Part shown: positions 18,384 through 22,025 of the stretch, piece after piece
Numbering within the stretch: the first letter of the stretch is position 1
Layout: the number at the start of each line of letters is the position of its first letter
From: Planctomycetota bacterium
Lineage (GTDB): Bacteria; Planctomycetota; Planctomycetia; Gemmatales; Gemmataceae
Reading direction: 5' to 3'
DNA: 43,311 nt
Assembly: GCA_016872595.1 (NCBI GenBank)
Contig: VGZJ01000016.1
Span: 1 to 43,311, forward strand
Notes under the pieces: generated by a model
Seen by the model: the letters and a program-made list of their open reading frames with translations, nothing else
What the model was told of the DNA's origin: nothing
Database searches by the model: none
Program-made: the position numbers and the translations under genes

Positions 18384-21300
18384 ATGACCGCCGGTCGCTG
18401 TTGCCGCTACGCGGCTGCTTTCGCCCTCGTCGCGACGCTCGTTCCGCTGTCCGTGTCCCGGTCCAACGACCTCGACCCGGCCAAGCAGCGCGACAAGCAG
18501 AAGGAAATCAAGGCGAAGGTGGACGAGGCCGTGCGCCGCGCCTCCTCGACCCTCGACGCCATGACCTTCCAGCGGCTCAGCCCGACCGCCGAGCAGAAGA
18601 TGCTCGACGACGTCGCCACCGGCCTGAAGGGGCTGAGCAAGACCCAGATCGCCGAGGTGCTGGAGCACCTCGAGAAGGCCGCGACCGCACCGAACCCGGC
18701 CACCGCGACCGCCGAGCAGAAGGCCGCCTACGCCAAGCACCTCGCCATCGTCCAGCAACTGAAGGTGATGCTCGGCCAGCTCGACGTCATCAAGAACCTC
18801 GACGAGGCCGCGGAGCGCCTCGAGCGCGCCGCCGACAAGCAGATCAAGCTCGTCACCGAGGGCCACACGAACAGCACGCTGCCCGTGCGCCGCGGCGTCG
18901 TCGTCGACGACCGCGACGAACTCGCCAACGAACAGGGCGACCTGCGCACCGAGGTCGCCTCGGTGTTCAAGCAGATCAACGCGATGGTGAACGCCAAGCT
19001 GCTCTCGCCCGAACAGCTCGCCCGCGTCGAGAAGGCCGAGGCCACCTCGCGCGGCGCGAAGCTCGTGTCCGACATGATCGCCACCATCAACGCGCTGAAG
19101 CAGGGCGCGTTCCTCCAAGCCGCCACCGATCAGCGCCGCCACGCGAAGGAACTGAAGGACCTCGCCGCCGCGCTCCGCACCCCGCCGGCCACCCGCATCG
19201 ACGCGCTCAAGGAGGCGAAGAAGCAGGTCGAGAAGGCCATCGACGCGCAGACGAAGGTGAACAAGGACACGGCCGAGAAGCCGGACCCGGCCGAGGTCGA
19301 GAAGATCCGCCGCCAAGGGACCGACCCGAAGGCCGCCCGCGCCAACGACCTCGCCAACGCCCAGACGAAGGCCGAGTTCACCGCCCGCGACGCGGCCAAG
19401 GCCGCCCACGATGTGGCCCCGGAGGTCGCCGCCGACATCCGCAAGGCTCAGAAGGAACAGTGGACCGCCGAAGACAAGTTGCGCCAAGAGAAGGACCCGG
19501 CCGCGGCGCAGATGCCGCAGGAGAAGGCCCTCGAAGCGCTGAAGAGCGCCAAGGACGAACTCGACCGGCAGATCGCCGCCGCGGAACTCGCCAAGGTCGA
19601 TCCGCTCGCCGCCACCAAGCAGGCCATCGAGCAACTGGACAAGATCATCAAGGACCAGAAGGACACCAACGCCAAGACCGAGAAGGCCGCGGCCGACCCG
19701 AACAACTTGGCCCGCAACAAGGACGCCGCCGCCGCGCAGAAGGACGTCGCCAAGAAGACCGACGAACTGCGGAACACGCCGCTCCCCCCGAACACCGACG
19801 CGAAGCAGGCGCTCGACAAGGCGCTCGACTCGCAGAAGCAGGCGTCCGACAAGCTCGACAACAAGCAGGCCAACGACGCCAAGCCGAACCAACAGGACGC
19901 GCTGAAGTCGCTGGAGATGGCGAAGAACGAACTCGAGAAGCAGGCGAAGGCCATCGAGGACCGCCGCGCCGAGATCGCGCAGTTGGAGATGCTAAAGGGC
20001 AAACTCGACGAACTGGCGAAGAACGAAAAGGACGTGGCGAAGGCCGCGGACAAGGCCGCCAACGACCCCAAGAAGCCCGACACCGGCGACATCGCCAAGA
20101 AACAGGGCGACCTGACCGACCCCACCAAGGAAGTCGGTAAGGAACTCGAAAAGCTAGTGCCGGAGGCCGCGATGAAGGTCGCCGACGCCAACATGAAGCA
20201 AGAGGGCGCGAAGAACGACCTCGCCATGAACATGCCCATGATGGGCGGCGAGAAGGCGAAGGACGCGGCCGACAAGATCGCCGACGCCGCCAAGGACGTT
20301 CAGAAGAAGATCGACGAGAAGAAGGGCCAAGAGGCCGCGGACCAAGCCGCGCTCCAGCCCAACAAGGTGGACCCGCAACAGGCCGCGCAGCAACTCGCCA
20401 AGGCCATCGAGCAGGCGAACATGGCCGCGATGCAGGCCATGATGGCGCAAATGGCCCTCAACCCCATGCCCATGGACAACAAGGGCATGATGCCGATGGC
20501 CGGCATGATGATGATGGGCGACATGAAGGGCATGATGGACATGGCCGGCATGATGGACATGAAGGGCATGATGCCGATGGGCATGATGGGCGACATGAAG
20601 GGCATGATGATGGACAACAAGGGGATGATGCCGATGGGCAACCCCGACATCGCCAAGCTCCAGAAGGACATCGCGGATCAGGCCGCCAAGCAGATGCTCC
20701 CCGACGCGGCGAAGGCCGCGGACATGGCCGCCAAAGCCCTCGAAATGGGCGACCTCCCGAAGGCCATCGAGAACCAGATGAAGGCCCTCGACGAACTCAA
20801 GAAGGGCGCGATGATGCAGCCCATGATGGGGATGATGGGCATGCAACCGATGGGCATGATGGGCGACATGAAGGGCATGCAGCCGATGGGGATGATGGGT
20901 ATGCCCATGGGCATGATGGGCGACATGAAGGGTATGATGGGTGATATGAAGGGCATGCAACCCGGCATGATGGGTGATATGAAGGGTATGATGGGTGATA
21001 TGAAGGGCATGCAACCCGGCATGATGGGGATGATGGGCGACATGAAGGGCATGCAACCGGGGATGATGGGTGATATGAAGGGCATGCAGCCCGGCATGGG
21101 CATGATGGGCGACAAGAAAGGCATGCAGCCCGGTATGGGCATGATGGGTGATATGAAGGGCATGCAACCGGGCATGGGGATGATGGGTGATATGAAGGGC
21201 ATGCAACCGGGCATGGGGATGATGGGCATGGGGATGATGGGTATGGGCGACAAGGGCATGATGGGCATGGGCGGCATGATGGGGATGGGGATGATGGGGA

Positions 21301-22025
21301 TGCCGAACAACGATCTCGCGAAGCAGCAACAGCAGGTGCTCGACGCGACGAAGGCGCTCCAGCAGTCGCAGCAGGCCAACCAAGCCGCGCAAGCCGCGCT
21401 ACAACAGGCTCAAGCCAACGCGCCGATGGCCGTTCAGAACCAACTGCAACAGGCCCAGAACCAACTGCAACAGGCCCAGAACCAACTGCAACAGGGTCAG
21501 CCCGGCCAAGCCGGTATGAACCAACAGCAGGCCGCCCAGAACTTGCAACAGGCCCTCGACACACTCAACCAAGCGGCGATGGCCCAAGGCATGATGGGCT
21601 CGCAACCCGGCATGGGTCAGATGGCGATGGCCGGGATGGGCATGGGCATGGGCATGATGCCCGGGATGGGGATGGGGATGGGCATGGGCATGGGTATGGG
21701 GATGGGGATGGGCATGGGGATGGGCATGGGCATGGGCATGGGCATGGGCATGGGCATGGGCATGATGGGGATGGGCATGGGGAACAACGCCCAGCAGGGG
21801 ATGAACATGGGCATGGGTGAAGGCGACATGATGGGCGGGGAGAAGCTGAAGAACGCCGGCTCCACCGGGAACAACGCCACCGGCGACGGCAACTTCATCA
21901 AGCTCCGCAACAAGGACCGCGACAAGGTCCAACAGGCCAGCGACACCCAGTTCCCGGCCGAGTTCCGCGAACTGATCAAGCAGTACAACATCAACATCAA
22001 GAACGGCAAGCCGGCCGGGAAGTAA
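18384..22025 (+). CDS. giant secreted methionine-rich coiled-coil protein
   Basis: A 1213-residue protein. A signal peptide (YAAAFALVATLVPLSV) is followed by about 640 residues of charged Ala/Lys/Asp/Glu helix, probably coiled coil. Three methionine-rich blocks follow: 680-753, 810-975 and 1070-1150. Block 2 contains a 13-residue unit MMGDMKGMQPGMG (three consecutive copies, many variants), and block 3 has 16 uninterrupted Met-Gly pairs (1095-1126). A Gln-rich helix (976-1067) with a repeated QNQLQQA motif lies between. The C-terminal 60 residues (with FPAEFRELIKQYNINI) look like an ordinary domain end. The ATG at 18384 has AAGGAGG with 7-base spacing, so translation should be strong. Met-rich segments bind Cu(I) or Ag(I) or scavenge oxidants in other proteins; that role here is only a hypothesis. 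I recognise no family. Confidence 0.85.
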   Translation: MTAGRCCRYAAAFALVATLVPLSVSRSNDLDPAKQRDKQKEIKAKVDEAVRRASSTLDAMTFQRLSPTAEQKMLDDVATGLKGLSKTQIAEVLEHLEKAATAPNPATATAEQKAAYAKHLAIVQQLKVMLGQLDVIKNLDEAAERLERAADKQIKLVTEGHTNSTLPVRRGVVVDDRDELANEQGDLRTEVASVFKQINAMVNAKLLSPEQLARVEKAEATSRGAKLVSDMIATINALKQGAFLQAATDQRRHAKELKDLAAALRTPPATRIDALKEAKKQVEKAIDAQTKVNKDTAEKPDPAEVEKIRRQGTDPKAARANDLANAQTKAEFTARDAAKAAHDVAPEVAADIRKAQKEQWTAEDKLRQEKDPAAAQMPQEKALEALKSAKDELDRQIAAAELAKVDPLAATKQAIEQLDKIIKDQKDTNAKTEKAAADPNNLARNKDAAAAQKDVAKKTDELRNTPLPPNTDAKQALDKALDSQKQASDKLDNKQANDAKPNQQDALKSLEMAKNELEKQAKAIEDRRAEIAQLEMLKGKLDELAKNEKDVAKAADKAANDPKKPDTGDIAKKQGDLTDPTKEVGKELEKLVPEAAMKVADANMKQEGAKNDLAMNMPMMGGEKAKDAADKIADAAKDVQKKIDEKKGQEAADQAALQPNKVDPQQAAQQLAKAIEQANMAAMQAMMAQMALNPMPMDNKGMMPMAGMMMMGDMKGMMDMAGMMDMKGMMPMGMMGDMKGMMMDNKGMMPMGNPDIAKLQKDIADQAAKQMLPDAAKAADMAAKALEMGDLPKAIENQMKALDELKKGAMMQPMMGMMGMQPMGMMGDMKGMQPMGMMGMPMGMMGDMKGMMGDMKGMQPGMMGDMKGMMGDMKGMQPGMMGMMGDMKGMQPGMMGDMKGMQPGMGMMGDKKGMQPGMGMMGDMKGMQPGMGMMGDMKGMQPGMGMMGMGMMGMGDKGMMGMGGMMGMGMMGMPNNDLAKQQQQVLDATKALQQSQQANQAAQAALQQAQANAPMAVQNQLQQAQNQLQQAQNQLQQGQPGQAGMNQQQAAQNLQQALDTLNQAAMAQGMMGSQPGMGQMAMAGMGMGMGMMPGMGMGMGMGMGMGMGMGMGMGMGMGMGMGMGMGMMGMGMGNNAQQGMNMGMGEGDMMGGEKLKNAGSTGNNATGDGNFIKLRNKDRDKVQQASDTQFPAEFRELIKQYNINIKNGKPAGK
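21102..21218 (+). repeat. three consecutive 39-bp units coding the 13-residue Met repeat
   Basis: Units at 21102-21140, 21141-21179 and 21180-21218 encode MMGDKKGMQPGMG once and MMGDMKGMQPGMG twice. Units two and three are identical at all 39 bases, implying recent duplication or gene conversion. Shorter relatives (MMGDMKGMQPG and MMGDMKG) fill 20844-21101. Confidence 0.95.
21666..21761 (+). repeat. (ATGGGN)16 hexanucleotide tract coding (Met-Gly)16
   Basis: Sixteen consecutive ATG-GGN codon pairs lie inside the Met-rich gene; the last seven are all ATGGGC. Length changes would add or remove dipeptides without shifting frame. Confidence 0.95.

Follow-up and report, generated by a model that had tools for sequence, protein, structure and literature searches.

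The gene at positions 18384-22025 of the window, a stretch of 43,311 nucleotides from a planctomycete of the family Gemmataceae (GenBank assembly GCA_016872595.1, contig VGZJ01000016.1; contig C16 in a genome of 6.8 Mb and 590 contigs), encodes a methionine (Met)-rich protein of 1213 residues. This protein is rather likely to be a secreted, mostly alpha-helical accessory component of the Gemmataceae MoxR/DUF58/BatA/VWA gene cluster, kin to the C-terminal part of the DUF4175 (PF13779) proteins, that serves as a spacer or scaffold with interchangeable disordered linkers. The architecture of the protein, its constant helices, interchangeable linkers and shared gene neighbours, and the constraint on its repeat arrays were all computed. 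The composition is real and striking, and the explanation that we favor is ordinary, namely hypervariable low-complexity linkers within a conserved helical protein. What is new, so far as searched, is that the linker chemistry is exchanged wholesale while the helical parts stay fixed, and that this exchange is partly coordinated among the linkers. No paper joining methionine-rich, low-complexity and Planctomycetes was found among those searched, and PMC8567305 mentions methionine a single time, in an unrelated context.

The open reading frame is free of internal stops, and its start is supported by the AAGGAGG immediately upstream of the ATG at 18384. Met accounts for 161 residues (13.3 %), of which 160 fall within the mature part of 1187 residues; the mature part contains no Cys and five His, the latter all in the N-terminal helical part by eye. 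The protein is probably secreted, the signal-peptide cleavage site being placed by eye and not by a predictor. An earlier note on this DNA had described a secreted Met-rich protein with three Met blocks, an (MG)16 run and about 640 residues of charged helix ahead of the blocks. This description holds: the run is exact at residues 1095-1126 (window 21666-21761), and the first block comes after about 650 residues, most of them helical. The segments are listed below, the borders of the three Met blocks being our own segmentation.

18384..22025, plus strand: Met-rich helical and linker protein, 1213 residues (ATG with AAGGAGG; homologues)
18384..18461, plus strand: probable signal peptide, residues 1-26 (basic start, hydrophobic AAAFALVATLVPLSV core)
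18462..20417, plus strand: H1, charged Ala-rich helical array, residues 27-678 (AlphaFold helices, hhalign)
20418..20642, plus strand: linker 1, Met block, residues 679-753 (33 of 75 Met; coil at mature 666-727)
20643..20801, plus strand: H2, conserved helical segment, residues 754-806 (alignments, AlphaFold)
20802..21305, plus strand: linker 2, Met block, residues 807-974 (71 of 168 Met; MMGDMKGMQPG(MG) repeats)
21306..21584, plus strand: H3, conserved helical segment, residues 975-1067 (alignments, AlphaFold)
21585..21893, plus strand: linker 3, Met block, residues 1068-1170 (35 of 103 Met; contains (MG)16)
21894..22001, plus strand: C-terminal motif FIKLRNKDRDKVQQ..FPAEFRELIKQYNINIK, residues 1171-1206, 36 residues (alignment)

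The part of the protein before the Met blocks has homologues in 65 of 81 family genomes, its own included, which argues for a real gene. The comparison comprises 63 sequences: the window protein, two relatives (L039 and L040) and 60 fetched loci from 60 of the 64 other genomes. Genomes G031, G048, G058 and G059 are not among the fetched loci; two stretches of G031 (L160, L161) were added later and stand outside the counts. An alignment of 57 was made after dropping L039, L073, L075, L079 and L093, judged incomplete from length or contig end, and the atypically long L068; Met in the dropped rows is 6.0 % (L039), 6.8 % (L073) and 2.5-3.0 % (the others). The protein of L040 (LR594584.1) equals that of genome G153 (L152), a member of the window's genus, over the last 1000 residues. 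In the segment table of 63 rows this duplicate, L152, substitutes for L040, and the genus members L153-L158 are added. Across the 63 sequences Met makes up 0.9 to 13.1 % of the stop-to-stop frame, with the window highest and 12 sequences below 2 %. Genome G008 gave no homologue with the H1 query, although one of its frames, of 1142 residues, has a weak DUF4175 match; its region L159 gave no phmmer match. A tblastn search of residues 753-1213 against plasmids found no match, BLAST masking low complexity.

In the alignments the order is H1, linker 1, H2, linker 2, H3, linker 3 and C-terminal motif, and the Met blocks coincide with the three linkers. Two conserved helical segments sit between the blocks, a small correction to the earlier note. 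Its "normal C-terminal domain" is a conserved motif of 36 residues. The fixed segments vary little: H2 has a median of 53 residues and is absent from one row (L076), H3 has a median of 93 residues and a range of 84-116, and the C-terminal motif measures 36 residues in all 63 rows. The linkers between these conserved flanks range over 11-75 (linker 1), 0-348 (linker 2) and 63-112 residues (linker 3), with a Met fraction of 0-44 %. In relatives they carry repeats such as QQPGQQQANNG (L051), KGEPM (L066), GDKPA/GDKPM (L071), MGEKG (L155), MPKDGQP (L056) and GEKGDKG-like units (L072, L077). Within the window's own genus, L044 has no Met in the 28 residues of linker 1 or the 52 of linker 2, and linker 2 of L153 and L156 is devoid of Met. 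The low-complexity spacer that the earlier note had offered as the plain alternative is thereby supported, the blocks being swapped in place for Gln/Asn/Pro/Gly, Lys/Glu/Pro/Gly or collagen-like GEK repeats, and Met appears to be one linker chemistry among several that can replace each other. As a separate observation, linker 2 of L072 (G001) and L077 (G011) carries collagen-like GEKGDKGEKG repeats, and L072 has a weak Pfam collagen match below cut-off.

When a Met-rich linker is defined as one with 15 % Met or more, all three linkers qualify in 11 of the 63 rows; 17 rows have less than 5 % Met in all three. On a tree of 63 tips, the Met-rich state requires no fewer than 5 changes for linker 1, 9 for linker 2 and 5 for linker 3, against about 13, 17 and 17 for shuffled labels; the state is therefore inherited for some time and then lost or regained. 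In a tree-corrected test of 62 rows (L076, which lacks H2, was excluded), the Met fractions of linkers 2 and 3 co-vary (r = 0.51, p = 0.003), as do those of linkers 1 and 3 (0.48, p = 0.027). No co-variation of linker Met with H1 or H3 was detectable.

AlphaFold, given the mature protein with L039 and L040, predicts helices at H1, H2, H3 and the C-terminal motif, and coil with a predicted local distance difference test score (pLDDT) of about 30 across most of the linker length. The ends of helices reach into the first two linkers, and linker 2 also holds one short helix of low confidence. The best-predicted stretch, mature residues 251-500, is a series of helices with block-mean pLDDT of 61-94, mostly above 80. 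Pieces of H1 are interrelated, with hhalign probabilities of 97 % (B2-B3) and 93 % (B1-B4). A Foldseek search with the N-terminal model reached a best E of 0.16. H2 and H3 were also considered as copies of one module on account of a similar pattern by eye, an idea rejected at an hhalign probability of 4 %.

The linkers use a narrow alphabet. Their 12,655 residues in the 63 rows include 1,488 Met, 176 Leu, 88 Arg, 84 Val, 25 Ile, 6 Phe, 4 Cys, 1 Tyr, 1 His and no Trp, Met being by far the most frequent hydrophobic residue apart from Ala. In the window, the three linkers together hold 139 Met in 346 residues (about 40 %), and among the residues one base from Met there are no Ile, Val or Arg, two Leu and two Thr, but 20 Lys. 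Comparison of neighbouring units within (MG)16 gives six silent and no amino-acid changes. The ratio of amino-acid to silent changes per site is 0.13 for 11 arrays from 8 proteins taken together; of the 15 proteins examined, 7 had no array. It is 0.09 for ten units of the window's linker 2, among which two share three residues with the following unit, and under a looser array definition reaching into the flanks it is 0.27 pooled and 0.19-0.54 singly. The selection of arrays on their protein pattern biases these values downward. Because amino-acid changes are few against many silent ones, and because Met co-varies between linkers 2 and 3, selection seems to act on the composition of the linkers. 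Most simply read, the linkers draw on a limited set of residues (mainly G, P, A, Q, N, K, D, E and M), and Met is one of those allowed. Since the pooled linkers, and not only the Met-rich ones, contain little Ile, Val, Phe or Arg, this scarcity need not concern Met.

These results bear on whether the Met blocks could be selectively neutral, expanded ATGGGN microsatellites that grew by plain slippage in a tolerant linker. The DNA of the gene does hold tandem arrays (a 39-base unit with score 319 and the hexamer ATGGGC in 24.8 copies with score 185), array length and unit vary among species of one genus, and the array of L067, with one silent change in 18 sites, looks young. In most arrays, on the other hand, silent Gly sites are well mixed while Met persists, and apart from Lys the residues one step from Met are almost missing, which makes neutrality unlikely. 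An artefact, whether a wrong frame or an assembly error in the repeat region, is highly improbable: repeats are difficult to assemble and the genome is in hundreds of contigs, but the aligned homologues keep the frame and the segments before, between and after the blocks (L076, without H2, excepted), the aligned loci include multi-megabase contigs (G066, G043), and a ribosome-binding site stands at the start. The exact repeat count may be off.

Runs of at least four consecutive ATGGGN units occur in the window's genome in this gene only. Five consecutive units occur in 15 of 95 family genomes, inside the homologue of the gene in ten of them and outside it in G033, G057, G006, G031 and G025, a tally that leaves out the second loci G169:C253 and G078:C30. 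Met-Gly repeats are also seen in other proteins (L132 of G057, L136 of G025 and L135 of G031), distinct by eye only, and such stretches seem, from their sequences, to arise in several planctomycete protein families.

As the earlier note had stated, the gene stands in a MoxR block. The MoxR, DUF58, BatA-type and VWA genes that accompany the cluster all lie nearby, and with the upstream partner gene, the Met-rich gene and a downstream squalene-cyclase-repeat-like (SQH-like) gene they share one strand. The name TMIg for the upstream partner is our own label; its membrane segment was placed by eye and it carries no demonstrated Ig domain. The counts given with the neighbours below refer to fetched stretches, many of which end early upstream.

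6046..7059, plus strand: MoxR AAA+ ATPase (match in 18 of 63 loci)
7091..8053, plus strand: DUF58 protein (31 of 63)
10559..12796, plus strand: BatA-type protein, aerotolerance N-terminal plus VWA (43 of 63)
12957..15599, plus strand: VWA/GATase1-like protein, both Pfam matches below cut-off (48 of 63)
15721..18150, plus strand: upstream partner gene TMIg (51 of 63)
22160..23197, plus strand: SQH-like protein, downstream (52 of 63)

The MoxR, DUF58, BatA-type and VWA genes are likewise on one strand in Bat/MoxR-VWA clusters (e.g. PMC3557215, PMC9976466), and the planctomycete version adds the TMIg, linker-protein and SQH-like genes. The downstream-gene match is missing in 11 of the 63 fetched stretches; loci without a TMIg or downstream match could reflect divergence, true absence or a contig end. 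A promoter scan of 15400-23600 found none. Between the Met-rich and SQH-like genes, a GC-rich hairpin of 15 pairs and a tail containing T lie at 22052-22086; the region has 7 terminator-like sites against 7.5 in shuffles, which is no excess. A 66-base tandem repeat (2.1 copies, 80 % matches) lies 3' of the cluster at 23434-23569. At the window's edge, positions 75-181 hold a 52-base unit in 2.1 exact copies, the first 29 bases of which have 96 copies in the genome (52 plus, 44 minus). Among the matches listed, plus-strand copies fall within about 230 bases of a contig start and minus-strand copies apparently near contig ends. From these positions, the assembly seems to be broken there by an element of high copy number, which is probably an insertion sequence.

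The relationship to DUF4175, whose curated Pfam cut-off is 27.3 bits, comes from the relatives. Of seven homologues scanned, L084 (45.3 bits) and L085 (33.5) pass, the best stretch being profile 650-753; L078 (22.8) and L072 (26.5) fall below, and L096, L101 and L051 have no match. Two of 34 TMIg relatives match the N-terminal part (profile 181-291 and 18-98), weakly and below cut-off. Among 148 genomes of the class, matches occur in 91 and exceed the cut-off in 57, mostly to the N-terminal part of the profile among the matches listed. A one-chain DUF4175-like protein of 1071 residues in the window's genus (G129) covers profile 179-333 and 667-780. In another family, L164 and L165 have a VWA gene, a protein in the place of TMIg and then a shorter coiled signal-peptide-like protein in the same order, the coiled protein matching the C-terminal part of DUF4175 and having less than 2 % Met; in a third family, L166 has a protein in the TMIg place and a coiled protein with 3.4 % Met. 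The matches suggest that the TMIg gene and the linker-protein gene are two halves of a split DUF4175 protein, the homologues L084 and L085 resembling its C-terminal part and the TMIg relatives its N-terminal part. Unlike DUF4175 proteins, the N-terminal membrane part and C-terminal coiled part are here two separate genes (15721-18150 and 18384-22025), with long low-complexity linkers besides. Since the window proteins fail the formal DUF4175 test, they are not filed as members. In the DUF4175 literature, the one paper found deals with the Acinetobacter division protein AdvA (PMC7481262). By eye, the one-chain protein of G129 (L163, G129:C1:6498500-6504500) ends in a PPEYRDLVERYQRAL motif resembling the C-terminal motif described above.

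Several results weigh against the proposal of a DUF4175-related helical scaffold with disordered linkers. The window protein has no DUF4175 match at E up to 10, its TMIg neighbour has none either, and the one DUF4175 match in the genome is elsewhere (C1:13357-14088). As the matching DUF4175 stretch is coiled, composition may aid the L084 and L085 matches. The TMIg match is missing in 12 of the 63 fetched stretches, and contact of the protein with VWA/TMIg partners is putative, argued by analogy. After tree correction, Met in linkers 1 and 2 does not co-vary significantly (p = 0.28). The AlphaFold model has a mean pLDDT of 53 and a predicted template modelling score of 0.34 from an alignment of three sequences, and low confidence in the linkers is equally expected because this alignment is shallow. 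Solved structures yielded no natural relative at E below 0.01, only designed coiled coils. A full-model match to a vinculin homologue (E 1e-3, template modelling score 0.10-0.14) was set aside as a likeness of generic helical bundles.

The earlier note had put forward a metal-buffering or redox-sensing surface fibre. This was set back as the principal explanation by Met-poor orthologues that share the same neighbours: in 10 of the 12 sequences under 2 % Met, the fetched stretch includes BatA, VWA or TMIg, singly or together, and of the other two, L062 has the downstream gene only and L076 none of the neighbours. The note itself had named as contrary evidence homologues of this kind and blocks replaced by unrelated low-complexity sequence, and both are found. 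A Met-specific chemistry confined to Met-rich lineages, in which the blocks bind Cu(I)/Ag(I) or form an oxidant sink or redox-switchable condensate, is a doubtful alternative. It would agree with the predominance of Met among the linker hydrophobics and the near absence of most of its one-step neighbours, with its retention in arrays whose silent sites vary, and with the co-variation of linker 3 with the other two; the redox-controlled Met-rich region of Pbp1 (PMC8394241) and the His/Met-rich disordered region of PcoB in copper efflux (PMC12509749) are precedents. Against it, orthologues manage without Met beside the same neighbours, the linkers of all 63 rows taken together contain few Ile, Val, Phe or Arg residues, and no His or Cys stands beside Met in the 346 linker residues of the window. 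The window protein matches no copper family (no Pfam model at E up to 0.01, no NCBIfam model at E up to 1, and at E up to 10 only an unrelated Pfam DNA ligase model), no copper gene occurs among the nine window open reading frames scanned, and the genome has no CopB match and no MsrP above cut-off. In PMC3557215, a test for an oxidative role of the Bat proteins was negative, as Leptospira biflexa lacking all bat genes showed no oxidative phenotype.

A link to periplasmic Met repair or copper export was also considered and dropped, no pattern being seen by inspection, without statistics: MsrP exceeds its cut-off in 8 of 95 family genomes (G001, G207, G071, G045, G018, G028, G011, G037), and CopB occurs in two, G074, whose homologue is Met-rich and so speaks for the Met-specific alternative, and G045, whose homologue is not. 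The linkers resemble the N-terminal region of PcoB/CopB, described in PMC12509749 as disordered, Met-containing, poorly conserved and tolerant of swaps and truncation; unlike that region, which is attached to a beta-barrel and His-dependent, they have no His, and no copper-protein match accompanies them. They also resemble the Met-rich domain of Pbp1/ataxin-2, which in PMC8394241 has many Met, low complexity and no enrichment of aromatic residues. Pbp1 is a yeast cytoplasmic protein, and the likeness is one of composition, with no relationship claimed. An added Met-specific role in Met-rich lineages is possible but unsupported. A long shot of this kind is that all three linkers turned jointly, in a small number of Gemmataceae lineages, into a disordered envelope phase rich in Met and free of His and Cys. 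Met oxidation or Cu(I) binding would soften or tighten this phase, so that a MoxR/VWA scaffold would respond to redox state or copper, an arrangement that would parallel in bacteria the Met-rich switch of Pbp1.

The favored explanation, a helical scaffold with exchangeable linkers, may work as follows. The protein would be related to the C-terminal coiled part of DUF4175, its membrane-anchored N-terminal half being the product of the gene just upstream. In the periplasm, the helical bundles H1, H2 and H3 and the C-terminal contact motif would probably be kept apart by the three disordered linkers. The protein would thus space or scaffold the VWA and TMIg proteins in the membrane, on which the MoxR ATPase would act; it is placed with these partners because MoxR ATPases typically work with VWA proteins in target remodelling (PMC9976466, PMC13036017). 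Linkers nearly free of aromatic, beta-branched and Arg residues would allow several chemistries, and in the window's lineage all three may have drifted to Met-Gly through repeat growth.

Met density alone should not be read as metal binding. The gene pair hints that in planctomycetes the DUF4175 proteins, which are little studied, also exist in a form split over two genes. The family is also a natural experiment on disordered linkers, in which fixed helices are joined by Met-Gly, Gln-Asn-Pro-Gly, Lys-Glu-Pro-Gly or collagen-like repeats in the same positions. The partial coordination of Met between linkers, together with the exchange, makes it possible to test directly which length, flexibility and chemistry such linkers require.

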